A DNA stretch of 64,000 nucleotides from Epibacterium ulvae (GTDB lineage: Bacteria; Pseudomonadota; Alphaproteobacteria; Rhodobacterales; Rhodobacteraceae), in assembly GCF_900102795.1 (NCBI RefSeq), contig NZ_FMWG01000009.1, positions 62,001 through 126,000 on the forward strand, in the 5' to 3' direction. Under the pieces are notes generated by a model. That model worked only from the letters and a program-made list of their open reading frames with translations, was not told the DNA's origin and ran no database searches. A program made the translations under genes and the position numbers. Shown one piece after another: positions 27,362 through 40,735 of the stretch (position 1 is the first letter of the stretch; each line of letters begins with the position of its first letter).

Positions 27362-29131
27362 TTATTGAGCGCGCATGTCGTCGCGGCTGATACCTGCAAC
27401 AGATACAGGCTTTTTCATCGCGTCACGGCGGAAAGGCTCACCCAGTTCTTGGTTCAGCAAGATCTCGATGAAGGTGGTTTCTTTGTCTTCCATCTGGCGC
27501 TTAACCGCTTTGTTCAGCTCATCGGTCAGCTCTTCCATGCTGGTGACTGCAACACCGTGAACGCCACATGCTTTTGCGATGCCAGCGTAAGACACTTCTG
27601 TTGCCAGTTCGGTGCCTACGAAGTTGTCATCGAACCACAAAGTGGTGTTACGCTTCTCAGCACCCCACTGGTAGTTGCGGAAGATAACCATGGTGATTGG
27701 AGGCCAATCGTCACGGTTTACCGAAACCATTTCGTTCATGGAGATACCGAATGCGCCGTCGCCTGCGAAACCAACAACGGGAGTGTCGGGGCAGCCAACT
27801 TTTGCACCACAGATCGCTGGGAAGCCATAGCCACAAGGGCCAAACAGGCCAGGTGCCAGATACTTACGGCCATCTTCGAAAGAAGGATAAGCGTTACCGA
27901 TCGCGCAGTTGTTGCCGATGTCAGAAGAGATGATCGCTTCTTTAGGCAGAGCAGCTTGGATTGCGCGCCATGCCATACGAGGTGACATTTTTTCTGGCTC
28001 ACGACCACGTGCACGTTCGTTCCAGGAGGTGCCTGGATCGTCATCTTCGTGATCCATCGCGGTCAGTTGCTGTGCCCATGTGGATTTTGCATCTGCGATG
28101 GTGTTTTTGCGCTCTTCGCGACCTTCGTCACCCGCGGTGTCAGACAGGCGGGCCAGAATGCCTTGGGCAACTTTCTTTGCGTCGCCAACGATGCCAACTG
28201 AGACAGGTTTGGTCAGGCCGATACGATCAGGGTTGATGTCAACCTGAATGATTTTCGCATCGCGGGGCCAGTAATCAATACCGTAGCCGGGCAGCGTAGA
28301 GAATGGGTTCAGGCGGGTACCCAGAGCCAGAACAACGTCTGCTTTGGCGATCAGTTCCATACCTGCTTTAGAGCCGTTGTAGCCCAGAGGACCGGCAAAC
28401 AAAGGATGTGAACCGGGGAACGCGTCGTTGTGCTGATAGCCAACACAGACAGGCGCGGTCAGACGCTCTGCAAGTTCTGCAGAATCACCAATTGCGTTAC
28501 CCAGAACAACGCCAGCGCCGTTCAGGATTACTGGGAATTTCGCGTTTGACAGCAGCTCAGCCGCTTTTGCAACGGCGTCTTCACCACCCTGTGGGCGCTC
28601 AAACTCAACGATTGCAGGCAGTTCGATGTCAACAACCTGTGTCCAGAAGTCACGTGGGATGTTGATCTGTGCTGGTGCAGACGCGCGTTTTGCTTGCAGG
28701 ATCACACGGTTCAGAACTTCTGCGATACGGGACGCATCACGGACTTCTTCTTGGTAGGCCACCATGTCTTCCAGTAGAGCCATTTGCTCAACTTCTTGGA
28801 AGCCACCTTGACCGATGGTTTTGTTTGCCGCTTGTGGCGTCACGATCAGCAGAGGTGTGTGATTCCAGTAAGCAGTTTTGATTGGTGTTACCAGCGAGGT
28901 GATACCGGGGCCGTTTTGGGCAACCATCATCGACATTTTGCCAGTTGCGCGGGTGTAGCCGTCTGCCATCATGCCGGCGTTGCACTCGTGGGCGCAGTCA
29001 AAGAATTTAATGCCAGCTGCAGGGAACAGGTCTGAGATAGGCATCATGGCGGAACCGATAATGCCAAAGGCATTGTCGATACCGTGCATCTGAAGCACCT
29101 TAACAAAGGCTTCTTCGGTGGTCATTTTCAT
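27362..29131 (-). CDS. xsc: Sulfoacetaldehyde acetyltransferase
   Basis: The 589-residue thiamine-diphosphate enzyme turns sulfoacetaldehyde and phosphate into acetyl phosphate and sulfite. It has the ThDP-enzyme architecture: N-terminal PYR domain (MTTEEAFVKVLQMHGIDNAFGIIG, the HECNAGMMADGYTRATGK glutamate region), a central domain, and the C-terminal PP domain with GFAGDGAFGISMNEM as the GDG...N Mg-ThDP motif. The sequence reads as Xsc rather than acetolactate synthase: it starts with the Xsc-typical MKMTTEEAFVK and its partners are pta, tpa and tauR. The ATG at 29131 has a GGGAG site 9 nt upstream. A pair of TauR-like direct repeats ends 83 bp upstream. Confidence 0.96.
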   Translation of the reverse strand: MKMTTEEAFVKVLQMHGIDNAFGIIGSAMMPISDLFPAAGIKFFDCAHECNAGMMADGYTRATGKMSMMVAQNGPGITSLVTPIKTAYWNHTPLLIVTPQAANKTIGQGGFQEVEQMALLEDMVAYQEEVRDASRIAEVLNRVILQAKRASAPAQINIPRDFWTQVVDIELPAIVEFERPQGGEDAVAKAAELLSNAKFPVILNGAGVVLGNAIGDSAELAERLTAPVCVGYQHNDAFPGSHPLFAGPLGYNGSKAGMELIAKADVVLALGTRLNPFSTLPGYGIDYWPRDAKIIQVDINPDRIGLTKPVSVGIVGDAKKVAQGILARLSDTAGDEGREERKNTIADAKSTWAQQLTAMDHEDDDPGTSWNERARGREPEKMSPRMAWRAIQAALPKEAIISSDIGNNCAIGNAYPSFEDGRKYLAPGLFGPCGYGFPAICGAKVGCPDTPVVGFAGDGAFGISMNEMVSVNRDDWPPITMVIFRNYQWGAEKRNTTLWFDDNFVGTELATEVSYAGIAKACGVHGVAVTSMEELTDELNKAVKRQMEDKETTFIEILLNQELGEPFRRDAMKKPVSVAGISRDDMRAQ

Positions 29132-29214
29132 GGTGGCGGCTCCCTAGAAACGCGTAATTTGGGCCAAGATTGGCCAAGTGACTGGTCTCGTTTAGGCTGT
29201 GGCGTCTTCCCTCG

Positions 29215-29247
29215 TTAGGGCCAAAAACTGGCCCCAAATAGATCCAG
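29215..29247 (-). promoter_or_regulatory. Candidate TauR operator upstream of xsc (two direct repeats, 23-bp period)
   Basis: On the minus strand CTGGATCTAT (29247-29238) and TTGGCCCTAA (29224-29215) each match 8 of 10 bases of CTGGACYTAA, the TauR direct repeat reported for Rhodobacter as I remember it. They start 23 bp apart, exactly the period of the pair upstream of tpa, and the inner repeat is 83 bp before the xsc ATG. A promoter for the xsc operon between tauR and xsc is inferred. Confidence 0.6.
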
Positions 29248-29268
29248 TTCCCTTCGCCATATGCCTAT

Positions 29269-29291
29269 AAATGAGACGTAGCGTCTCATTT
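29269..29291 (-). terminator. Hairpin overlapping the tauR stop codon
   Basis: A 10-bp perfect stem (29269-29278 / 29282-29291, loop of 3) includes the tauR TGA and ends with TTTATA on the minus strand. It is the likely tauR transcript end, which would make xsc depend on its own promoter. Confidence 0.6.
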
Positions 29292-30752
29292 ATTACACTT
29301 TACGATCTCTTTTGCAATCAGTTCGATGCCGGCCTCAATTTTACTCTTGGGAATGGAAGTATAACCGAGGCGATAGTGGTTTTGTTTGCGTGTTGCAGGG
29401 GCGAAAAACGGTGCACCCGGTTCCAGAAAGACACTGCCTGAGCGTAACTTGCGTGCTACGTCGTCCATATTGGTGCCTTCGGGTGCTTTCATCCAAAGAG
29501 AAGAGCCACCGAACTGGCCTGAACCGGAAATTGTCAAACCATGCTGTTTGATTGATTCTTCAATGACCAGTCTGCGACCGTGTAAGGTTTTTGCGATCCG
29601 GCGAATCTGTGCATCATAATGCCCAAGAGATAAGAAGTAAGCTACCGTTCTTTGCATATGGCCTGGCGGGTGCCGCAAAACATTTGCTCGCAAAGCGCGC
29701 GCTTGTCTGATGAAAGATTCGGAGCCCACAAGATACCCGAGGCGAAGACCCGGAAAGAGCGACTTTGAAAAGCTGCCGATGTAGATAACTCGGCCTTCTT
29801 GATCTAGCGATTTGAGCGCAGGGGAGGGAGAGTCTAAGAAAGACATCTCAAACTCGTAATCATCTTCAACGATAACTGCATTGATGTCGCGCGCTCGTTT
29901 TAGCAGCGCTTTGCGACGCTCCATTGGCATGTTCGTCGTAGTTGGACTTTGATGGCTCGGTGAGGTGAAGATGACATCTGTATCGTCTGAAATGAGCTCT
30001 GGTGGCAATCCATCTTCATCTACTGGAATGCCTTCAAATTGGCAGCGTGTGTTCACCAATTGATCGCGCAACGTATAGTAGGCTGGATCTTCCAGGGCGG
30101 CTTTGCGTCCACGATTCAGCAGAATTTGTGCCGTCAGCCAGAGCGCGTTGGTTGCGCCAAGCGTTATTAGAATTTCCTGCGGACGCGCTATAACGCCACG
30201 ACGGGGGAGGGAATGGCGTGCAATGTATTCGACCAAAAGAGGGTCATCGTGATCGTATTGATCATTGGCCAGAGCAGAAAAATCTTTATGCCCGAGTGCC
30301 CGCAGTGCACAAAGTCGCCAGTTGGCATGATCGAACAAAGATGCGTCTGCTTGGCCATATATGAATGGGTAACGGTAGTCGCGCCAATCCTGTGGTTTAT
30401 GTGGCGTATCTCCGCCGGTGAACGTGCGGGCCAGTGACCGGGACCAGTCTACAGAATCCACTGTTTTTTGCGTCGGAGTATAAGAGGGCGGCACTGGCGC
30501 GTTTGTGGAGACAAAATACCCTGAACGCCCCTTAGACGATAGATAATCGCTTGCGAGAAGTTCAGTATAAGCCAAGGTCACAGTAATTCGGCTAATGCCT
30601 AGATGGGATGCCAATTTGCGCGAAGACGGCAGCTTTTCACCTATGCGAAAACGCCCGGAAAGGATGCCTTCGGCGATCATTTCCTGGATCTGAGCTTGAA
30701 GTGTGCCCTGTGCGTCGGGGTTGAGAAAGAAAGTTTCAACAGATATCGCCAT
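29286..30752 (-). CDS. tauR: TauR, MocR-type GntR/aminotransferase regulator of taurine genes
   Basis: The 488-residue regulator joins an N-terminal GntR winged helix (residues about 15-80; GRFRIGEKLPSSRKLASHLG, then ISRITVTLAYTELLASDYL) to a fold-type-I aminotransferase domain. The PLP-binding lysine lies in IYIGSFSKSLFPGLRLGYLV. MocR proteins use PLP as sensor cofactor and bind direct repeats. In Rhodobacter capsulatus TauR activates taurine use. It sits between tpa and xsc on the same strand, and each of those has its own repeat pair upstream. The ATG at 30752 has no clear ribosome site. A single operator-like decamer lies 37 bp upstream. Confidence 0.93.
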   Translation of the reverse strand: MAISVETFFLNPDAQGTLQAQIQEMIAEGILSGRFRIGEKLPSSRKLASHLGISRITVTLAYTELLASDYLSSKGRSGYFVSTNAPVPPSYTPTQKTVDSVDWSRSLARTFTGGDTPHKPQDWRDYRYPFIYGQADASLFDHANWRLCALRALGHKDFSALANDQYDHDDPLLVEYIARHSLPRRGVIARPQEILITLGATNALWLTAQILLNRGRKAALEDPAYYTLRDQLVNTRCQFEGIPVDEDGLPPELISDDTDVIFTSPSHQSPTTTNMPMERRKALLKRARDINAVIVEDDYEFEMSFLDSPSPALKSLDQEGRVIYIGSFSKSLFPGLRLGYLVGSESFIRQARALRANVLRHPPGHMQRTVAYFLSLGHYDAQIRRIAKTLHGRRLVIEESIKQHGLTISGSGQFGGSSLWMKAPEGTNMDDVARKLRSGSVFLEPGAPFFAPATRKQNHYRLGYTSIPKSKIEAGIELIAKEIVKCNK

Positions 30753-30788
30753 CGGGTTACTTTAGTTTGGCGATACGGTGGATGCAAT

Positions 30789-30798
30789 CTGGACTTAC
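30789..30798 (+). promoter_or_regulatory. Single TauR-like half-site upstream of tauR
   Basis: CTGGACTTAC matches 9 of 10 bases of CTGGACYTAA, the best single match in the window. It lies 37-46 bp upstream of tauR in the opposite orientation and lacks a partner at a 23-bp distance. It might serve autoregulation. Confidence 0.4.
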
Positions 30799-30900
30799 GC
30801 CTTTTCAAGGCTCTAATCGTAGAAAATTAGAATGTGTCAAATGGCATTTCTTTCAGTTAGTCATCCACTGACATGAAGCATTTTAGGCTTGATATGAAAA

Positions 30901-30924
30901 AACGCCCTGCAGGGGCAGGGCGTT
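30901..30924 (-). terminator. Intrinsic terminator of tpa
   Basis: A 10-bp perfect stem AACGCCCTGC/GCAGGGCGTT (30901-30910 / 30915-30924, loop AGGG) starts about 28 nt after the tpa stop. It is followed on the minus strand by TTTT, giving a six-T tract with the stem end. It separates tpa from tauR. Confidence 0.85.
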
Positions 30925-30952
30925 TGGGTTTTTGTTGCGGATGGGCTGATGA

Positions 30953-32350
30953 TTAGCCGAATACTTTGCTCAGCGCTTTGTCAACAGTTTCACAGATCAG
31001 GTCGATCTCTTCTGCGGTTGAAATCAATGCTGGGCTAAAGCAAAGCGTGTTGTTGAAGCCAGGAATAGAGCGGTTGGTGATGCCGATGATAACGCCCATC
31101 GCACCGCACTCCGCGACAACTTTTTGCGCATCTGCTTCATCTACAGGTTCTTTAGTGTCGCGGTCTTTGACCAGCTCAACACCTTGGAACAGGCCTTTGC
31201 CACGCACATCCCCGATGACGGCGTGTTTTTCCATCATCGCTTTGAAGGATGCATTCATGCGATCCCCCAAGGTGCGTACATTTTCCAGCAGATTTTCGTC
31301 TTCGATGATGCGAATGTTTTCCAACGCTGCCGCCGGGCCCGCAGTACAGCCACCAAAGGTGGAAATGTCGCGGAAGTAACCCATCGGATCCGATGTATCA
31401 TCTTTAAAGATGTTAAAGATTTCTTCGGTGGTCACTGTGCATGCAATTGCCGCATATCCAGACGCTACACCTTTGGCCATGGTCACGAAATCAGGTTTGA
31501 TGCCAAAGTGCTGATAGCCGAACCATTCGCCGGTACGACCCACGCCGCAGACGACTTCATCGATGTGCAACAGGATGTCGTACTTTTTGCAAATTTCTTG
31601 AACGCGGTCCCAGTAGCCGACTGGCGGCTCGATCACGCCGCCGCCCGCGGTGATGGGCTCAAGACAAAGCAGGCCAACGGTTTCTGGACCCTCGCGCAGG
31701 ATCACCTCTTCGATCTGATCCGCACAGGCACGGCCAAACTCTTCACCAGACAGGTTCTCCAAACCCAACTGATCTTTACGGTATTCCATGCAGTGTGGGA
31801 CTTTTACAAAGCCTGGCGCAAATGGACCATATTGTGCAACCCGCTGCTCTTGCCCTGTTGCAGACATCGCGCCCAGCGTTGAGCCGTGGTAATCGCGATC
31901 CCGGTACAGGATTTTGTATTTCTTGCCGTCATATTTCTTGTGCGAGATTTGGCGCACCATCTTGAAGACTTTTTCGTTTGCTTCAGATCCAGAACTACTG
32001 AGATACGCGCGGGTCATGCCCGGCATCTTTGAGATCAATTTTTCAGAGAATAACGCGCCAGGAATAGAGCCCGCGACGCCTGCGAAATAGCAGAGTTTTA
32101 CCAGTTGATCGCTGACGGCCTTTGCAATGCTTTCACGCCCGTAGCCAACGTTTACGGTCCAGACGCCACCAGATACCGCATCTAGATATTCTTTTCCGTG
32201 TTGGTCCCAGACGCGCGTGCCTTTGCCTTCGACGATAATCCGTGGATCCGCGGTCTCTAGTGCTTTGTGCTGGAAGAGGTGATGCCACACATGCGCCTTA
32301 TCGGCGCTGACAACATGGGAAAGATCGTTTTCTGTGAACGCGCCTTGCAT
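30953..32350 (-). CDS. tpa: Taurine-pyruvate aminotransferase
   Basis: The 465-residue class-III PLP aminotransferase transfers the amino group of taurine to pyruvate, giving sulfoacetaldehyde and alanine. It has the class-III pattern: YLDAVSGGVWTVNVGYGRESI, AYLSSSGSEANEKVFKM, the LLHIDEVVCGVGRTG aspartate that binds the PLP ring nitrogen, and the PLP lysine in FVTMAKGVASGYAAIACTV. The start has AAAGGA. By sequence alone it could be another omega-aminotransferase, but adjacency to tauR and xsc fixes the substrate well. It is monocistronic, with a terminator behind it and TauR-like repeats 93-125 bp ahead. Confidence 0.94.
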   Translation of the reverse strand: MQGAFTENDLSHVVSADKAHVWHHLFQHKALETADPRIIVEGKGTRVWDQHGKEYLDAVSGGVWTVNVGYGRESIAKAVSDQLVKLCYFAGVAGSIPGALFSEKLISKMPGMTRAYLSSSGSEANEKVFKMVRQISHKKYDGKKYKILYRDRDYHGSTLGAMSATGQEQRVAQYGPFAPGFVKVPHCMEYRKDQLGLENLSGEEFGRACADQIEEVILREGPETVGLLCLEPITAGGGVIEPPVGYWDRVQEICKKYDILLHIDEVVCGVGRTGEWFGYQHFGIKPDFVTMAKGVASGYAAIACTVTTEEIFNIFKDDTSDPMGYFRDISTFGGCTAGPAAALENIRIIEDENLLENVRTLGDRMNASFKAMMEKHAVIGDVRGKGLFQGVELVKDRDTKEPVDEADAQKVVAECGAMGVIIGITNRSIPGFNNTLCFSPALISTAEEIDLICETVDKALSKVFG

Positions 32351-32874: not shown

Positions 32875-32901
32875 AAATGAATCGTTTAGGTGGGAGGACG
32901 T

Positions 32902-33966
32902 ATGTCGAGACATGTAAAAGCTGATTTTTCGGATCAGAGTCGGGTGACAATTAATCACTTGTCACAGGCACTGGGACTGACAAAAGGGACGGTGAGCCGT
33001 GCCCTGAACGGCTATCCTGATATTTCGGAACGGACACGCTTAAAAGTTCAGCGCACAGCTGAGCGCATGGGCTATCAACCACTCAGCCATGCGCAGGCGA
33101 TACGTACAGGTCGTAGTCGCTCCATGGGGCTGGTGATCCAAACCTATGATCACGATGCACAACGACCGTTTCTAGCGGAGTTCTTGGCGGGCATTTCAGT
33201 TGCGGCGGCCAGTGAGGGCTGGACCTTGACAGTCACCGCCTCAGATACACCCGAAGGAACGCTTGAAGTGATGCGGCAGCTGATAAAAGAGCGTAAAGCA
33301 GATGGGTTTATATTGCCTCGCACGCTGCGTCAGGACCCCCGCGTGGACCTGATGAGGGCTTTGAAGACACCTTTTGTGTTGTTTGGGCGGGTGGAGGACC
33401 CAACAGAGTGCGCGTGGTATGACATTAAAGGCGGTGCCGCGATGCATGAGGCGCTGGGGCGACTGGTAGATTTGGGACATCGTCGCATCGCTTATGTAGG
33501 TGGTGGTCAGCAATATAACTATCAGCGGTTGCGCTACAGAGGGTACCGCGACGGTTTGGAAAGCCACGGCTTTGATCTAGATAATGCTCTGGTTCACCAA
33601 AACGCTGTAACGCGCGCCGCAGGGGCGCAGGCCACGCGCGCGCTCCTTGAATTGGACAGCCCACCGACTGGTATCATCTATGCCGTTGACGCAGCAGCTG
33701 CGGGAGCTTGGGATGCGGCACAAGAGTTCGGGCTGACGATCGGAAAAGATCTCTCTGTTGTCACGTATGATGGCACTGGAGAAGGCGCAAATCTGCAGCC
33801 GGCATTGGCGAGTTATGCAGTTGATATCCGGCGCGCAGGTGAACGTTTGACACAACTGTTGATCCGCCGCATTCGCGGCGAGGATGTGGAATTGCTGCGC
33901 GAAGAAGAACCCGCGCAGTTTCGTCCGGGTGGTTCCTTAGGGCCTGCACCGGCGACAAAACACTAA
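32902..33966 (+). CDS. LacI-family transcriptional regulator of the sugar-import operon
   Basis: The 354-residue repressor has the N-terminal LacI helix-turn-helix and hinge (VTINHLSQALGLTKGTVSRA, residues about 12-60), then a periplasmic-binding-protein-like sensor domain (RSMGLVIQTYDHDAQRPFLAEF; GHRRIAYVGGG; a C-terminal VVTYDGTGEGANLQP). A Pro- and Ala-rich C-terminus follows. The ATG at 32902 is 5-10 nt after GGGAGGAC, and the GTG frame opening at 32890 is in that ribosome site. It is the first gene of a same-strand run of six genes and lies behind its probable operator, so it likely senses the imported sugar. Confidence 0.93.
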   Translation: MSRHVKADFSDQSRVTINHLSQALGLTKGTVSRALNGYPDISERTRLKVQRTAERMGYQPLSHAQAIRTGRSRSMGLVIQTYDHDAQRPFLAEFLAGISVAAASEGWTLTVTASDTPEGTLEVMRQLIKERKADGFILPRTLRQDPRVDLMRALKTPFVLFGRVEDPTECAWYDIKGGAAMHEALGRLVDLGHRRIAYVGGGQQYNYQRLRYRGYRDGLESHGFDLDNALVHQNAVTRAAGAQATRALLELDSPPTGIIYAVDAAAAGAWDAAQEFGLTIGKDLSVVTYDGTGEGANLQPALASYAVDIRRAGERLTQLLIRRIRGEDVELLREEEPAQFRPGGSLGPAPATKH

Positions 33967-33997: not shown

Positions 33998-35341
33998 ATG
34001 GAATTGAAACGGTCACTTTGGATGGGCACAGCTGTTCTGGCTTTGTCAGCCGTTGCGGCGCAGGCGGACACATTGCGGTTCTGGACGATTGAAGAACAGC
34101 CAGAGCGTCTTGCCAAGCAAGAGCAGTTGGCGGCTGATTTTTCGGCTAAAACCGGTCACACAGTCGAAGTTATCCCTGTCACGGAAAAAGATCTGGGCAC
34201 GCGCGCGACCGCGGCATATGCGGCTGGCGATCTGCCGGATGTGATTTACCACACTTTGCAATATGCGGCACCTTGGACGGATGCGGGTATTCTGGATCCC
34301 GATGCGGCGACTGATGTGATCGAAGATCTAGGCATTGGCACATTTGCTTCGGGCGGTCTGAATATGGCTGCTCTGCCAGATGGGTATGCTGCTGTTCCGG
34401 TCGATGGCTGGACACAGATGCTGGTCTACCGCAAAGATTTGTTTGATGCGGCAGGTTTAGAAGCTCCGACGTCATTTGCAAATGTGCTGGCTGCTATTGA
34501 AAAGCTGCACAATCCACCAGAGGTCTTTGGTTTCGTTGCCGCGACAAAGGTAGATGAGAATTTCATGAGCCAGATCTTGGAGCATGTCTTCCTTGCCAAT
34601 GGTGTCTCTCCAGTGGGTGGCGAGGGTTTTGCTGAGCTTGATACAGCAAAAACCACCGAAGTTCTGGATTTCTACAAAGCCATCGCAAAAGCGTCACCTC
34701 CGGGTGAACTATACTGGAAACAGTCGCGCGAGCTGTATTTTGCAGGAAAGGCAGCGATGATCATCTGGTCTCCCTTCATTCTGGATGAACTGGCTGGGCT
34801 GCGCGACAGTGCCCCGCCAACCATCACAGATGATCCAACTTCTGCTGAACTGGCGTCTAAAACTGGTATCGTGACAACCTTTGCAGGCCCATCAAATCCA
34901 GAAGGTGCTGCATGGGGGGACGTGCGCTATTTCGGAATTACTTCGGATGCGTCCACAGATGCCGCAATCGAGTTTGTAAAGTTCTCAATGGACGAAGGCT
35001 ACACCCAGACATTGTCGATTGCGCCAGAAGGAAAGTTCCCAGTGCGCCGCGGAACAGCGGATGATGCAGAGGCTTTCTCGAAAGCATGGTCAAAGCTTCC
35101 CGTTGGTGTCGATCGTAAAGCACCATTGGGTGATCTTTATGCGCAAGAGATGATTGATGAAATCGTAGGTGGATTGGATGTGGCGCAACGTTGGGGTGTC
35201 AAAGAAGGCCAGCTGTCTCTTGCTTCAAAGATGATCAACAGCCAAGCGATCAACCGGATTGTTCGTGAGTACATTGACGACCAGATCGATGCTGCAGCAG
35301 CTGTTGCCGCATTGAATGAAGAACTGGGCGAAATCGAGTAA
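33998..35341 (+). CDS. ABC transporter extracellular solute-binding protein (family 1)
   Basis: The 447-residue protein has a Sec signal peptide (MELKRSLWMGTAVLALSAVA, AQA cleavage) and the family 1 (MalE/UgpB-like) binding fold: DTLRFWTIEEQPERL, DLPDVIYHTLQYAAPWTDAGIL, YAAVPVDGWTQMLVYRKDLF and GKAAMIIWSPFIL. It should capture an oligosaccharide or glycoside in the periplasm and deliver it to the two permeases that follow. The GGGAGGAAACC site before the ATG at 33998 is strong. The gap to the first permease carries a stem-loop, typical of differential expression of binding protein and membrane parts. Confidence 0.92.
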   Translation: MELKRSLWMGTAVLALSAVAAQADTLRFWTIEEQPERLAKQEQLAADFSAKTGHTVEVIPVTEKDLGTRATAAYAAGDLPDVIYHTLQYAAPWTDAGILDPDAATDVIEDLGIGTFASGGLNMAALPDGYAAVPVDGWTQMLVYRKDLFDAAGLEAPTSFANVLAAIEKLHNPPEVFGFVAATKVDENFMSQILEHVFLANGVSPVGGEGFAELDTAKTTEVLDFYKAIAKASPPGELYWKQSRELYFAGKAAMIIWSPFILDELAGLRDSAPPTITDDPTSAELASKTGIVTTFAGPSNPEGAAWGDVRYFGITSDASTDAAIEFVKFSMDEGYTQTLSIAPEGKFPVRRGTADDAEAFSKAWSKLPVGVDRKAPLGDLYAQEMIDEIVGGLDVAQRWGVKEGQLSLASKMINSQAINRIVREYIDDQIDAAAAVAALNEELGEIE

Positions 35342-35383: not shown

Positions 35384-36640
35384 ATGGATATTTTCAACAT
35401 GACACACCCTGTGCCTCCTGAGGGGCCCGGTCAGCTTGCGCGGCGAGAAGCGCGACTGGCTTGGGGACTCCTTTCCCCGACGATCATTGCCGTGGCATTG
35501 GTTGTTATTCTGCCGCTGCTTGCGGTGTTCTGGATCAGTTTTAAACCTGTCGAGCTGGCTGATTTGCGTCCGCCAACCCCCGTCGCGCGCGAAGATGTGC
35601 GTGGCACGCTGGAGGCACCTGGAGATCAGGCGAAGCTTCGCTATCGTGTGCGCAACAGTTCTGCCCAGCAGGGCATTCGCGATGTGGTGCTGACAGACAT
35701 CTGGCCTCAGGGCCTGAAAGTGATCGGAGATTTAGACGCGCGCTGTGCGCTGGATGAGCAGCTGATTTGTACGTTTGGTGATTGGGAGGCCGGTACACGT
35801 GAGCGTATTGAAATCGAAGTTGAAGCCGAATCAGCTTATTTTGACGGCCCAGATCCCAAAGATAGCAAGCCGATCATGACAGGTGAGGCAACAAACATTC
35901 TGACCAACTTCGAATTCACACTCGAAAATCTGATAGAGATTTTTGACGGTGATGAGTTCTGGAGTGTCCTCGGTGTAACGATGTTTTACACCGTCTTTGG
36001 CACAATCGGAGCGCTGTTGTTTGGCCTTTTTGCGGCACTTCTTTTGAATGCGTCTTTCAAAGGGCAGGGGATTTTACGCGGGCTGTACCTGTTTCCCTAT
36101 GTTGCGCCTGTGATTGCTGTGGCGTTTGCTTGGATTTTGCTGCTGGATCCTCACTCTGGGTCTATCAACGCATTGCTGATCCAGATGGGAGTGACGGAAC
36201 AATCGATCAATTTCTTTGGAGAGCGCCCACTGGCCCTGATTATGGTCACGGTATTTGAAATCTGGCGGTATTTCCCACTGTCCTTCCTGTTTATTCTCGC
36301 GCGGATGCAGTCGATTGATACAGATATGTATGAGGCTGCAGATATGGATGGGGCATCTCCCTTCCAGCAATTTGCATATCTTAGCGTACCGCAGCTTTTG
36401 GGGATCTTGTCGGTTCTGTTCCTGCTGCGCTTCATTTGGACCTTCAACAAATTCGATGACATCTTCTTGCTGACGGGTGGCAACGCGGGCACGCGCACGC
36501 TCACTGTGAATGTCTACGAACAGGCCTTTGCGCTTGGCAATATCGGTGCAGGTGCAGCGGTTGCATTGGTTATCTTTTGCTGTCTTTTGGCCTTTAGTAT
36601 CTTTTTCTTCCGCTTCATGAGCCAGGAGGAAGGCCTATGA
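35384..36640 (+). CDS. ABC sugar permease (MalF type) with an inserted DUF11-like periplasmic domain
   Basis: This 418-residue permease has a first helix at about 27-52, then an unusually long external loop (residues ~55-190), then five further helices. The EAA loop is YEAADMDGASPFQQFAYLSV. The loop contains an Ig-like segment resembling DUF11/conserved-repeat domains: LRYRVRNSSAQQGIRDVVLT, DIWPQGLKVIGDL, Cys121 and Cys129 as a likely disulfide, and FGDWEAGTRERIEIEVE. In MalF the equivalent loop is P2, which holds the binding protein, so the insert may do the same. It overlaps the next permease by 4 nt (ATGA). Confidence 0.9.
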   Translation: MDIFNMTHPVPPEGPGQLARREARLAWGLLSPTIIAVALVVILPLLAVFWISFKPVELADLRPPTPVAREDVRGTLEAPGDQAKLRYRVRNSSAQQGIRDVVLTDIWPQGLKVIGDLDARCALDEQLICTFGDWEAGTRERIEIEVEAESAYFDGPDPKDSKPIMTGEATNILTNFEFTLENLIEIFDGDEFWSVLGVTMFYTVFGTIGALLFGLFAALLLNASFKGQGILRGLYLFPYVAPVIAVAFAWILLLDPHSGSINALLIQMGVTEQSINFFGERPLALIMVTVFEIWRYFPLSFLFILARMQSIDTDMYEAADMDGASPFQQFAYLSVPQLLGILSVLFLLRFIWTFNKFDDIFLLTGGNAGTRTLTVNVYEQAFALGNIGAGAAVALVIFCCLLAFSIFFFRFMSQEEGL

Positions 36641-37842
36641 CTCTGTTCAAAAATGGATATCTGACCGGTCCCTTGCTTGGCGCGCTATGGACCTTTGTGA
36701 TCGCGGTGACGGTTGCCGTCTGTATGAGCTTTTCAACGGGCGAACCATTTAAACCGCTCTTGCTTTTGTCCCTAATTTGGGGGGCAGGCCTTGGGCTTGT
36801 CTCTATGTACGGACGACTCCCCGCTGCACTCGCTGGTGGTGTTCTTTTGCTGGCTGGCGTGTTGGACATTGGCCCTGTTACGGTTGGCGAGGATGTCTCG
36901 GGCTTTTCTACGCTATTGGCGCATTTGGCCACGGCTGGGTTTTCTGCGTTGGGAACCTATGTCTTCACGCATGATTGCCCTCCCGGCCAACTCACCCGGC
37001 ATCAGTACGAGGCGGCCATCATTCGCTTTCTGACTGGGTTTGGATATATCTTTTTCACCGCAATTGTGGTGATCCCATTTTACGTGATGGTGATGACCAG
37101 CCTGAAAAGCCAGTCTGAACTGCTGCGCAACCCGCTCGACTTTTCAATCGATCTGAGCAAAGGGCTGGATCTCTTGCGCAGTTACCAAGAGCTGTTTGCC
37201 GACTTTGGATTTGGCGGGTATCTGTGGACCTCATTTTATGTTTCGGTCCTGACTGTCTTTATCACTTTGGCGTTTGCAATTCCGGGGGCCTATGCGGTTG
37301 CGCGTTTGCGCTTTCGCGGGCGCGCTGCGTTTTCGCGTTCTATTCTGCTGATCTATATGGTCCCCATGATCGTTCTGGCGCTGCCAATCTACATTGGGTT
37401 TTCCATGGCAGGGCTGCGCAACTCAGTCTTTGGTATTGTCCTGATCTATCCGGTCACAACCATTCCTGTGGCACTTTACATGTTGCAAGGATACTTCCGG
37501 GGACTCCCTAGTGAGGTCGAGGAAGCTGGCCTTATGGATGGGCTTTCACGGCTTATGGTAATTTGGAAAATCACCTTGCCATTATCTCTTCCTGCGTTGG
37601 CGTCGGTTTCGCTTTATGTGTTCATGATCGCCTGGAATGAGTTCCTTCTGGCCTTTATGTTGCTGGATGATCCCTCAAAATTCACTCTGACCCGTGGAAT
37701 TGCCTCACTCAATTCTTCTGAGATCCCACGCCAGCACCTGATGGCGGGATCGGTGATCGCGACTGTGCCAATTATGGCGTTGTTCCTTGGGTTGGAACGT
37801 TTCATGACCAAGGGGCTGACTGCTGGCTCCGTCAAAGGATGA
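36637..37842 (+). CDS. ABC sugar permease (MalG type) with an N-terminal membrane extension
   Basis: The 401-residue protein is about 110-120 residues longer than MalG-type permeases. The C-terminal ~270 residues are canonical: first helix at ~132-155 (FGYIFFTAIVVIPFYVMVM), TSLKSQSELL, and the EAA loop EVEEAGLMDGLSRLMVIWKI that contacts the ATPase. The N-terminal 125 residues add about four hydrophobic segments (around 11-32, 39-57, 62-77, 92-110), similar to small membrane proteins of unknown role. It is coupled to both neighbours by ATGA overlaps. The extra helices could stabilise the complex or come from an old fusion. Confidence 0.9.
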   Translation: MTLFKNGYLTGPLLGALWTFVIAVTVAVCMSFSTGEPFKPLLLLSLIWGAGLGLVSMYGRLPAALAGGVLLLAGVLDIGPVTVGEDVSGFSTLLAHLATAGFSALGTYVFTHDCPPGQLTRHQYEAAIIRFLTGFGYIFFTAIVVIPFYVMVMTSLKSQSELLRNPLDFSIDLSKGLDLLRSYQELFADFGFGGYLWTSFYVSVLTVFITLAFAIPGAYAVARLRFRGRAAFSRSILLIYMVPMIVLALPIYIGFSMAGLRNSVFGIVLIYPVTTIPVALYMLQGYFRGLPSEVEEAGLMDGLSRLMVIWKITLPLSLPALASVSLYVFMIAWNEFLLAFMLLDDPSKFTLTRGIASLNSSEIPRQHLMAGSVIATVPIMALFLGLERFMTKGLTAGSVKG

Positions 37843-39113
37843 CACCTATGTCTTCAACATCTGAAAATATCACAGAAGCCGCTAGGCGGATCCTCAGGGA
37901 GAATGACCGGGGGGGATATACGGTCCCCACAGCAGGTCTGTATCCCTATCAATGGAACTGGGACAGCGCGATTGCAGCACTTGGGTTTGCTGAATTTGAT
38001 ATGAACCGGGCGTGGCAAGAGATTGAAACGCTTTTTGCAGGGCAATGGGAGACGGGCATGGTTCCCCATATCTTGTTCCACAAACCGGATGCGGGTTATT
38101 TCCCCGGGCCTGATGTGTGGCAGGGCGTTGGTCCGACCCAGTCAACCGGGATCACCCAGCCACCTGTCGCGGCGACGATGGCGCGTATGGTTTATGATCG
38201 TGACCCAGCGATGGGGAAGGCGCGTCTGAGCGCGCTTTTCCCCAAAATCCGCGCATGGCACAGTTGGTTCCTAAAATGGCGCCTGGACAGTGAAAACGCG
38301 GTCTGTGTCACGCATCCTTGGGAATCTGGGCGGGACAATGCACCAGAATGGGATTTGGTCCTGAAAACCATGACCGCCGAAGGGGTGGGCGAGTATACAC
38401 GCAAAGATACCAGCCACGTGGACGCTTCCATGCGCCCGACCAAGTTTGACTATGATCGCTATATCTGGTTGGTGCAGCAGGGTGCGCGGCTAAAATGGGA
38501 TCAGCAGGCTTTGAGGGAGCAAAGCCCGTTTCGTATGGCTGATCCAACCACCACCTTTTTGTTGCTGCGGGCGCATCGGGATCTTCTGGCCGTGGGCGAA
38601 CGCCTTAACCTCGATGTGACAGGAATGGCCGAGGAGGTCGCGCTTTTGGAGGCGGGTGCACGGAGCCTGTGGAATACTGAGCTGGGCAGCTTTGATGCAA
38701 GGAATGCCGCTACCGGTGAATTTGCCAACTGCATGTCTAATGCAAGCTTTTTGTGCTGGTACGGTGGCATTGATGAAGCGGGGCAATTGGAAAAACTGCG
38801 CGCCAGCCTCACAAAGACGCGCTTTCCAGTCGCGAGCCATCCAACAGATTCGGACCGATACGACAGCTGTCGTTATTGGCGTGGGCCAACCTGGGCGTTC
38901 ATGAATATGATGATTGGCTTTGGTCTTGAAGACTGCGGTCATGCGGACCTTGCACAAGAGGTGCGTACAAAGACAGCTGAACTTATCGAAACCTACGGGT
39001 TTGCGGAATATTTCGATTCAACTTCGGGTGCGCCAGCTGGGGGCGACACCTTTACCTGGACAGCAGCCGTTTGGCTTGCCTGGGCCGGATCACAGGCGAA
39101 AGGGACACTCTAA
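37839..39113 (+). CDS. Cytoplasmic GH63/GH37-like alpha-glycosidase (MGH1-like; candidate glucosyl/mannosylglycerate hydrolase)
   Basis: The 424-residue protein has an (alpha/alpha)6 glycosidase pattern: YPYQWNWDSAIAALGFAEFD, GMVPHILFHKP, TQPPVAATMARMVYD, then WESGRDNAPEWD, where Asp166 corresponds to the acid of the ESGxD motif in GH37 trehalases and GH63 enzymes. Glu390 (GFAEYFDSTSG) is the candidate base. Its short length and YPYQWNWDSA resemble mannosylglycerate/glucosylglycerate hydrolases. No signal peptide is present, so it acts on the imported substrate. It overlaps the permease (ATGA) and the ATPase gene (TAATG). Trehalose, kojibiose or another alpha-glucoside are alternatives. Confidence 0.83.
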   Translation: MTPMSSTSENITEAARRILRENDRGGYTVPTAGLYPYQWNWDSAIAALGFAEFDMNRAWQEIETLFAGQWETGMVPHILFHKPDAGYFPGPDVWQGVGPTQSTGITQPPVAATMARMVYDRDPAMGKARLSALFPKIRAWHSWFLKWRLDSENAVCVTHPWESGRDNAPEWDLVLKTMTAEGVGEYTRKDTSHVDASMRPTKFDYDRYIWLVQQGARLKWDQQALREQSPFRMADPTTTFLLLRAHRDLLAVGERLNLDVTGMAEEVALLEAGARSLWNTELGSFDARNAATGEFANCMSNASFLCWYGGIDEAGQLEKLRASLTKTRFPVASHPTDSDRYDSCRYWRGPTWAFMNMMIGFGLEDCGHADLAQEVRTKTAELIETYGFAEYFDSTSGAPAGGDTFTWTAAVWLAWAGSQAKGTL

Positions 39114-40141
39114 TGGCGTCGATAGAACTCAAAGGGGCCGAAAAATGGTACGGTCAGGTTCAGGTCATAAAAGGGGTGGACCTTGAGATCGAAGAGGGCG
39201 AATTCATCATCTTCGTCGGCCCATCTGGTTGCGGAAAATCGACCTTACTGCGCATGATTGCAGGGCTTGAAGAAACCAGTCGCGGCCAAATCATGATTGG
39301 TGGCGTTGATGCGACCTCCAAGCCCCCGGCTGAGCGTGGACTGGCCATGGTGTTTCAGTCTTACGCGCTTTATCCGCATATGTCGGTGCGCGACAATATG
39401 GGCTTTTCTCTAAAGGCCGCTGGTGCTGACAAAGCGGTGATCAAGGAAAAGGTCGATGAGGCCGCGCGTGTTCTTAAATTGGAAGCGCTATTGGAACGTC
39501 GCCCGAAGGATTTGTCCGGCGGCCAGCGGCAACGTGTGGCGATTGGACGCTCGATTGTGCGTGACCCGACAGCCTTCCTTTTTGATGAACCGTTGTCAAA
39601 TCTAGATGCTTCTTTACGCGTGGAGATGCGCTACGAGATTGCAAAGCTGCACCAGACGCTTGGCTCGACCATGATCTACGTCACCCATGATCAGGTCGAG
39701 GCGATGACGCTGGCAGATCGTATTGTGGTTTTGGAAGGAGGGCATATTAGCCAGGTTGGCACCCCGCGTGAACTATACGAAAACCCAGGCAATCTTTTTG
39801 TTGCACAGTTCATTGGCAGCCCAAAAATGAATGTATTCTCGGCAGCCGCCCAAGGGTTGCGGATTGCAGAGACTTTACCTGCACAGGCGCAGCATGTGGG
39901 TATCCGGCCCGAGCACATCAGCTTTGTCGCGGAAGGTGAAGGCGCATTTGATGGCGCCGTGGATGTCGTCGAATACTTAGGCGCGGATTGTTTTGTGATC
40001 GTGGATGCAGGAGATATTGGACAGATCAATGTGCGGGTGGAGGGAGAGACAACCCTTCAGCCGGGTCAACGTCTGGGGCTGAGCTTTGGTCCCGAATATA
40101 CCCACACGTTTGATGCACAAGGTCAGGCGTTGAAAAGCTGA
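39113..40141 (+). CDS. ABC sugar-transport ATPase (MalK/UgpC type)
   Basis: The 342-residue ATPase has Walker A GPSGCGKSTLLRMIAG, the Q-loop MVFQSYALYPHMSV, the signature LSGGQRQRVAIGRS, Walker B FLFDEPLSNLDASLR and the switch His in YVTHDQVEAM. A C-terminal OB-fold (TOBE) regulatory region starts near IRPEHISF. It should energise the two permeases. Its ATG overlaps the stop of the glycosidase gene (TAATG). The frame opening at 39071 inside that gene was rejected. It is the last gene of the operon. Confidence 0.94.
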   Translation: MASIELKGAEKWYGQVQVIKGVDLEIEEGEFIIFVGPSGCGKSTLLRMIAGLEETSRGQIMIGGVDATSKPPAERGLAMVFQSYALYPHMSVRDNMGFSLKAAGADKAVIKEKVDEAARVLKLEALLERRPKDLSGGQRQRVAIGRSIVRDPTAFLFDEPLSNLDASLRVEMRYEIAKLHQTLGSTMIYVTHDQVEAMTLADRIVVLEGGHISQVGTPRELYENPGNLFVAQFIGSPKMNVFSAAAQGLRIAETLPAQAQHVGIRPEHISFVAEGEGAFDGAVDVVEYLGADCFVIVDAGDIGQINVRVEGETTLQPGQRLGLSFGPEYTHTFDAQGQALKS

Positions 40142-40209: not shown

Positions 40210-40566
40210 TTAGGTGTAGCCGCCGCTGCTTTGGACGCCTTTCTCAAGCTCATGGAAGTAAGCGATGGCGATCTGGTCGATCTCGTGATCGGTCAGCTCC
40301 AAAGTGAACCCGGGTGCATTTTGCTTTGGAGGGGGAGAGCTGACGCGTGTGCGCGAAAGCTGGCCTTCGTAGCGTTTGATTTCCGCATCTGTGCGGATGC
40401 CGAATGTCTTGGCGCGCTCACATGCTTCGCGATGGCTAACCCCCGCGAGCCGCTCGACCCATTGGGTCATGCCAATCACGTCTCGTAGCTTCTCCGGGAC
40501 CCTCCGGCGGAGCTTCCAACCCTTGTTGTCTTTGCTGAGGTACTGCTGTCTAGGCATGTCTGTCAT
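40210..40566 (-). pseudogene. Truncated tyrosine-integrase remnant (N-terminal domain only)
   Basis: From the ATG at 40566 only 118 residues are encoded. MPRQQYLSKDNKGWKLRRRV and PEKLRDVIGMTQWVERLAGVS look like the N-terminal arm-binding region (DUF6538-like) of phage/island integrases: a basic strand followed by a REACERAKTF helix. The core-binding and catalytic domains with the R-H-R-Y residues are missing, and nothing of them is found toward 40142. It points away from the 3' end of the tRNA-Met gene, where integrases normally sit. A small intact protein is less likely. The frame opens 36 nt earlier at 40602. Confidence 0.6.
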
Positions 40567-40572
40567 GCCCAA

Positions 40573-40595
40573 TGTGTACCACCGTTGTGTACCAC
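40573..40595. repeat. Tandem decamer TGTGTACCAC between integrase remnant and tRNA-Met
   Basis: TGTGTACCAC occurs at 40573-40582 and 40586-40595, a 13-bp period. Short direct repeats like this near an integrase could be arm-type binding sites. Only two copies are seen. Confidence 0.5.
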
Positions 40596-40658
40596 TGATC
40601 AATCAAAAGCCCTTTGATAGTAAGGCTTTCCAGCAATAACAACGCTTTAAGGTAAGGG

Positions 40659-40735
40659 TGGTAGCGGAGGAGGGACTTGAACCCCCGACACGCGGATTAT
40701 GATTCCGCTGCTCTAACCAGCTGAGCTACTCCGCC
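40659..40735 (-). tRNA. tRNA-Met (anticodon CAT)
   Basis: The 77-nt minus-strand gene starts GGCGGAGTAGCTCAGCTGG, folds into a cloverleaf with acceptor GGCGGAG/CTCCGCT, an anticodon stem GCGGA/TCCGC around ATCATAA (anticodon CAT), a T-arm GTTCAAG and an encoded CCA end. The sequence is that of the elongator tRNA-Met in Rhodobacterales rather than the initiator (which has three G-C pairs in the anticodon stem) or lysidine-modified tRNA-Ile. The latter cannot be fully excluded without a tRNA search. Confidence 0.92.

Follow-up and report, generated by a model that had tools for sequence, protein, structure and literature searches.

The importer operon described here lies within a stretch of 64,000 nucleotides from Epibacterium ulvae (contig NZ_FMWG01000009.1), hereafter the window, and comprises, in order, genes for a LacI-family regulator, an extracellular solute-binding protein (SBP), a MalF-type permease, a second permease, an MGH1-like hydrolase and a MalK/UgpC-type ATPase (Table 1). 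From the first permease onward, the genes touch or overlap by a few bases, with the start of the second permease overlapping the end of the first by 4 bases and the ATPase read from an inner ATG instead of the TTG at 39071 given in the ORF list. By eye, the N-terminus of the SBP resembles a cleavable signal peptide, and the protein contains no Cys and therefore no lipobox. Conservation of this arrangement was followed in the best 80 of 513 matches among GTDB species genomes, a set that accordingly leans toward insert-bearing relatives. The SBP gene is directly upstream of the permease in all 80 loci, once cut by a contig edge. The second permease is present in 78, the other two loci stopping at a contig edge, and the hydrolase in 70, with two of the remaining ten likewise ending at a contig edge. 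The second permease of the window itself begins with ~130 extra residues (36637-37038), which hold its three additional predicted helices and have no Pfam match at E<=0.001.

Table 1. Features of the importer operon, with positions given in the window.
Feature	Positions	Strand	Size or extent	Basis
LacI-family regulator, operon head	32890..33966	+		Pfam
Extracellular solute-binding protein (SBP), SBP_bac_1 family	33998..35341	+	447 aa	Pfam
MalF-type ABC permease with DUF11/CLIPPER domain between helices 1 and 2	35384..36640	+	418 aa	ORF, Pfam
Inserted domain, Ig-like beta-sandwich	35561..35911	+	residues ~60-176, strands at residues 66-168	profile, AF2
Second permease, MalG-type, three extra predicted N-terminal helices	36637..37842	+	401 aa	Pfam, hydropathy
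Glycoside hydrolase, MGH1-like	37839..39113	+		Pfam, NCBIfam
ABC transporter ATPase, MalK/UgpC type with TOBE domain	39113..40141	+		Pfam, NCBIfam

The features of a MalF-type binding-protein-dependent permease are all found at this locus. The BPD_transp_1 core (PF00528) spans residues 211-407 of the permease (E 4e-13), an EAA-type loop, EAADMDGA, is discernible by eye at residues 317-324, and the second permease, the SBP and the MalK-type ATPase are encoded alongside. Its best relatives in the PDB are 7cad_A and 8ja7_A (SugA), followed by MalF itself (2r6g_F), each aligned from about residue 177 on. Hydropathy predicts six helices, the first at about residues 33-51 and the second at about 203-221. 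Counted between the end of helix 1 and a shared anchor before helix 2, the loop has 140 residues in the window permease and 146 in two distant orthologues, compared to 187 and 191 in two true MalFs and mostly about 30 in MalF-type permeases that lack the insert. Among 31 of the latter, drawn from related genomes with plasmid-borne copies left out and ten chosen partly for long open frames, the loop has 27-59 residues in 30 and 92 in one (L182, from G051), whose length falls between the usual 30 and the 140 seen here. The loop thus exceeds that of its insert-less relatives by about 105 residues. The preliminary description of this permease, which had proposed some 135 extra residues between helices 1 and 2, was therefore right about the insertion and overestimated its size. 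The motifs on which it drew (RYRVRNSS, VVLTDIWPQGLKV, two Cys and FGDWEAGTRERIEI) are all present in the open reading frame, and the insert directly follows the first core helix, which is the place occupied by the P2 domain in MalF, as had been stated.

Identification of the inserted domain depends on its orthologues. The window copy matches the Pfam DUF11 model (PF01345) over residues 78-149 with E 0.002 and 18.9 bits when the whole protein is searched, and with E 0.0002 and 22.1 bits for the loop alone, and by itself it thus falls under the curated cut-off of 24.6 bits. Across the orthologous permeases, 83 of 89 match DUF11 at E<=1, the best at 3.4e-7, as do 52 of 54 diverse loops, the best at 3.6e-8, and four of ten orthologous loops, chosen by hand, exceed the cut-off. 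The related family DUF7933 matches more weakly (46/89 permeases, best 1.3e-4). Alignment of the 54 loops to 14 adhesin-type DUF11 domains, taken from ORFs of adhesin size picked from 25 fetched loci, gives an hhalign probability of 95.7% over 74 columns, with an E of 8.3e-9 that comes from one template and is not a database E-value. The converse search is in agreement. The loop profile matched 25 of 398 genomes sampled across the phylum, 16 of which hold the permease (E below 1e-30, counted by reading the rows) and all belong to the class of the window; in each of the nine with weaker matches only, the best match in the fetched locus was to a DUF11 domain above cut-off. A search of viral contigs gave no match, and a PDB search with the insert profile returned only integrin alpha-4 at E 2.

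In sequence, the same loops have no such affinity to MalF P2. PF14785, which is in the same model library and does match two MalF loops, matches none of the 89 permeases at E<=1, and hhalign against three P2 domains yields a probability of 0.1% and an E of 0.45. The P2 family was rejected on this basis.

Structure prediction leads to the same family by a separate route. The AF2 model of the loop alone (residues 55-182, 47 sequences) is a β-sandwich of eight strands of at least three residues, with a pTM of 0.80 and a mean pLDDT of 90.8, a value by which disorder of the loop was ruled out. Within the full-length model the domain is again confident (block pLDDT 75-89 over residues 61-150). Since pLDDT falls under 50 across much of residues 195-394 of the membrane part, that model was not used for placement. 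Foldseek returned 1561 PDB matches at E<=10, of which the top one, and the sole one at E<=0.001, is 9IFR (E 2.3e-4, TM 0.58 by query), reached here by fold and not by sequence; realignment in VIA gives Z 9.0 and 2.8 Å over 104 residues. Domains of AP2 mu2, a TRAP subunit, alpha-macroglobulin and integrin are tied with it in VIA score, so the fold alone would indicate just an Ig-like domain, and absence from among the matches listed does not count against a family, MalF included. 9IFR is the crystal structure of a CLIPPER domain, the new name of DUF11, from a fibrillar adhesin of Acinetobacter, and the family is an Ig-like β-sandwich of seven to nine strands (PMC12617251), as is the loop model. 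Together, the profile matches of the orthologues, the profile-profile alignment and the fold match to 9IFR identify the domain in the loop as a member of DUF11, a family called CLIPPER since 2025. The resemblance noted in the preliminary description is confirmed, as is the distinction from the MalF P2 family; the window copy, which was its starting point, becomes convincing in profile searches only in the company of orthologues that match beyond chance.

Within the insert, Cys121, Cys129 and Asn91 are invariant in all 89 permeases. The Asn is equally present in 14 of 14 adhesin DUF11 domains, and by eye a Cys pair occurs at a similar place in eight of them; with the sequence profile, the fold and a DxxPxG turn, these are the features that the insert shares with DUF11/CLIPPER. 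The differences lie elsewhere. The Lys that forms the isopeptide bond in 9IFR falls at about residue 70, as extrapolated from the hhalign offset, where none of the 89 permeases has Lys, and Lys anywhere in residues 64-75 is seen in only 12, nine of them at residue 75. The insert thus lacks the Lys-Asn pairing of the isopeptide bond found in many, not all, DUF11 members. Three residues before Asn91, 88 of 89 permeases carry Arg (Arg88), which none of the 14 adhesin domains has at the matching position, Thr being usual there (10/14), while Arg90, immediately before the Asn, is found in 85 of 89 permeases as compared to two of 14 adhesin domains. Judging from strand alternation, both Arg would face outward and Tyr87 inward. 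Residues L58, L61 and R62 of the linker are also conserved, and the only near-invariant aromatics in residues 55-182 are Y87 (86/89) and F178 (88/89). Two orthologues depart from this pattern and would be useful for testing the Arg patch: that of Thioclava (L107:7001-8233) keeps Arg88 and the Cys pair, with Leu and Ile at positions 87 and 90, and that of Pseudooceanicola spongiae (L089:7001-8230) has Ser at 88. The insert evolves faster than the membrane part, with median pairwise identities of 48% and 85%, respectively. P2 likewise diverges faster than the rest in the one MalF pair compared (31% vs 66% identity).

The architecture is also unusual for the family. Adhesin copies are repeats in a long surface protein, whereas the insert is a single copy inside a membrane permease; long, often repetitive surface proteins are the typical context of DUF11, not part of its definition, and the insert lies outside that context. 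The permease accordingly takes DUF11/CLIPPER beyond the surface-protein setting described in PMC12617251. A limited literature search for DUF11 in an ABC transporter permease found nothing about this combination, which is a weak basis for novelty. On the transporter side, MalF-type permeases without the insert (SugA, 8ja7_A; 7cad_A; members from alphaproteobacteria, Nonomuraea and haloarchaea) share the BPD_transp_1 membrane core and have no such domain, and the closest of these are 36-44% identical to the window permease over the core only. With MalF, the permease has in common a periplasmic domain placed after the first core helix, while the two domains are of unrelated sequence and different length.

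Among the close relatives found, possession of the insert is uniform. Of 292 genomes of the order, 76 hold the permease according to the insert profile, and another three give weak matches only, in frames of 1707-3672 aa. A query with the membrane part, from which the insert had been removed, recovers the same 76 genomes at 65-100% identity, all with frames of at least 412 aa, and otherwise only three permeases of 39-41% identity in frames of 301-352 aa. The survey therefore saw no insert-less member of the clade among 76 relatives in 292 genomes, with the search cut at E 1e-45 and nine candidates scored per genome, at which settings an odd one could be missed. Across a sample of the class, ten of 385 genomes match, seven of them from other families. 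The importer is of the known type I kind, and in every clade member seen it has a DUF11 domain in the helix 1-2 loop of its MalF-type subunit.

Five plasmid records, from Limimaricola, Ruegeria, Maritalea, Thalassospira and Paroceanicella, carry the insert-bearing permease, each annotated as a sugar ABC transporter permease. The insertion seems to have happened once, long ago, in the alphaproteobacteria and would later have spread by descent and probably on plasmids. As to a donor, no protein of the E. ulvae genome matches PF01345 at E<=0.001, a threshold that misses this permease too, so there is no clear DUF11 protein in the same assembly; of 149 genomes surveyed from the family, 34 do contain a DUF11 match. 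The operon also occurs on a contig from a metagenome-assembled genome labelled as a Thiotrichales bacterium (L045), with a permease 73% identical to that of the window, reflecting either transfer or mis-binning.

Retention of the outward Arg and occurrence of the domain in every clade member seen argue for a function. In view of where the domain lies and that it is folded, docking of the SBP is the hypothesis to consider first. In simulations of MalFGK2E, MalE is touched directly by a segment of P2 (PMC3150292). By this proposal, the DUF11 domain would face the periplasm as a rigid rim on the transporter and would contact the soluble SBP, orienting it over the pore much as P2 holds MalE, so that the same docking problem would have been solved a second time with an unrelated domain. 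A Cys121-Cys129 disulfide may stabilize the domain in place of the adhesin isopeptide bond, and the contact surface would be an outward patch of Arg88, Arg90 and neighbouring charged residues. The unfailing presence of the SBP gene directly upstream and the P2-like divergence of the insert favour this role, which was already suggested in the preliminary description. It is the likeliest one for the domain and a good hypothesis, to which we would give about even odds.

Several observations temper this estimate. Mirror-tree analysis of 74 of the 80 loci and the window, six having been dropped for a partial SBP, second permease or ATPase, gave partial correlations of 0.28 between insert and SBP, 0.39 between insert and ATPase and 0.01 between insert and second permease; these values were reached in none of 300 permutations for either SBP or ATPase and in 114 of 300 for the second permease. 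As the cytoplasmic ATPase is unable to touch the insert and yet correlates higher, the analysis lends docking no specific support. Additionally, the insert is mostly fast-evolving (mean distance 0.82), whereas the SBP is well conserved (0.28). Both are acidic in the window (-11 for the insert, -33 for the SBP), so no bulk charge attraction between them would be expected. Nor is the domain needed for docking in general, given the short loops of most insert-less MalF-type permeases measured. The furthest-reaching reading is that an adhesin stalk domain was domesticated once, in a marine alphaproteobacterial ancestor, and became the counterpart of P2 as docking platform in a type I ABC importer, losing the isopeptide bond, keeping the disulfide and gaining a fixed Arg contact, and thus arriving at SBP docking by convergence; we assign it a probability of roughly 0.4. 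A second lineage with a domain of unrelated sequence in the place of MalF P2 would mark the helix 1-2 loop as a position at which type I importers are able to acquire a module for handling their SBP, and would offer a natural experiment on the effects of such a module on affinity, specificity or coupling.

As most of the domain evolves fast, it would suit a loose spacer, and surface proteins typically use DUF11 as a module of their stalks (PMC12617251). It could serve in the periplasm as a spacer or anchor whose partner is not the SBP but, for instance, peptidoglycan, an outer-membrane porin or another envelope protein, and so places the importer in the envelope. We regard this as unlikely, as the conserved neighbours are the regulator, SBP, permeases, hydrolase and ATPase, with no candidate partner among them, and a single domain fixed at both ends in a loop would reach a few nm only. 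Retention of an outward Arg in nearly all permeases also speaks against it. Rapid divergence and the unspecific co-divergence with the SBP could otherwise reflect a neutral acquisition without any partner, an insert for fold stability or assembly that is retained because the subunit would insert or assemble poorly if it were taken out. Against this, the domain is maintained in all 76 relatives of the order and in the seven genomes of other families, and both its linker residues and Arg88, which by strand alternation would be on the surface, are conserved; such a passive role is improbable to a similar degree as that of a spacer.

Of the Ig-like folds that resemble the loop model, cellulose-binding modules (6qfs_A, Z 9.3, 2.8 Å over 92 residues; 3ndy_E, Z 9.2, 3.0 Å over 94) raise the prospect that the domain binds the sugar substrate in the manner of a carbohydrate-binding module, concentrating it at the SBP or pore, and chitin-binding domains are among the Foldseek matches as well. 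The Z values of these modules are, however, tied with those of AP2 mu2, the TRAP subunit and alpha-macroglobulin, and the insert offers no conserved aromatic platform, Y87 being probably turned inward, which makes sugar binding very improbable. That the loop is a diverged P2 domain and not DUF11 can be practically dismissed, for although it occupies the same place in the chain and MalF P2 has itself been described as partly Ig-like, the profile comparisons find DUF11 and fail to find P2.

The nature of the cargo can be approached from neighbouring genes, evidence that is suggestive only. The best NCBIfam match of the hydrolase is to glucosylglycerate hydrolase, at 297 bits and hence below the cut-off of 550. 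A compatible solute that resembles glucosylglycerate or is related to it is the probable cargo, a weak assignment. Speaking against it, the hydrolase is absent from eight of the 80 loci though the contig continues, and a glycerate kinase homologue is near the operon in only three. Two operons without the hydrolase have alpha-amylase-family genes nearby. The glycerate kinase homologue of the E. ulvae genome is encoded on another contig. Of the five plasmid regions, two (Limimaricola and Maritalea) have an annotated glycerate kinase close to the operon and two others (Paroceanicella and Ruegeria) a dihydroxyacetone kinase, with neither annotated near that of Thalassospira. A paper on Ruegeria transporters (PMC10130141) contained none of six substrate words looked for. 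The Agl alpha-glucoside importer was also considered, and a literature search yielded nothing to build on.

Just past the end of the operon lies a tRNA-Met gene (40659-40735, minus strand), adjoined by a short ORF (40210-40602, minus strand) whose product resembles the beginning of an integrase by a match to DUF6538 (E 3.9e-5, under the cut-off), a family linked to integrases. The pair is perhaps the scar of an integrated element. On the other side, at 27362-32350 of the minus strand, genes for a thiamine-diphosphate enzyme, a regulator that by eye is MocR-type-like and a class III aminotransferase are adjacent, in an order reminiscent of xsc, tauR and tpa of taurine catabolism.
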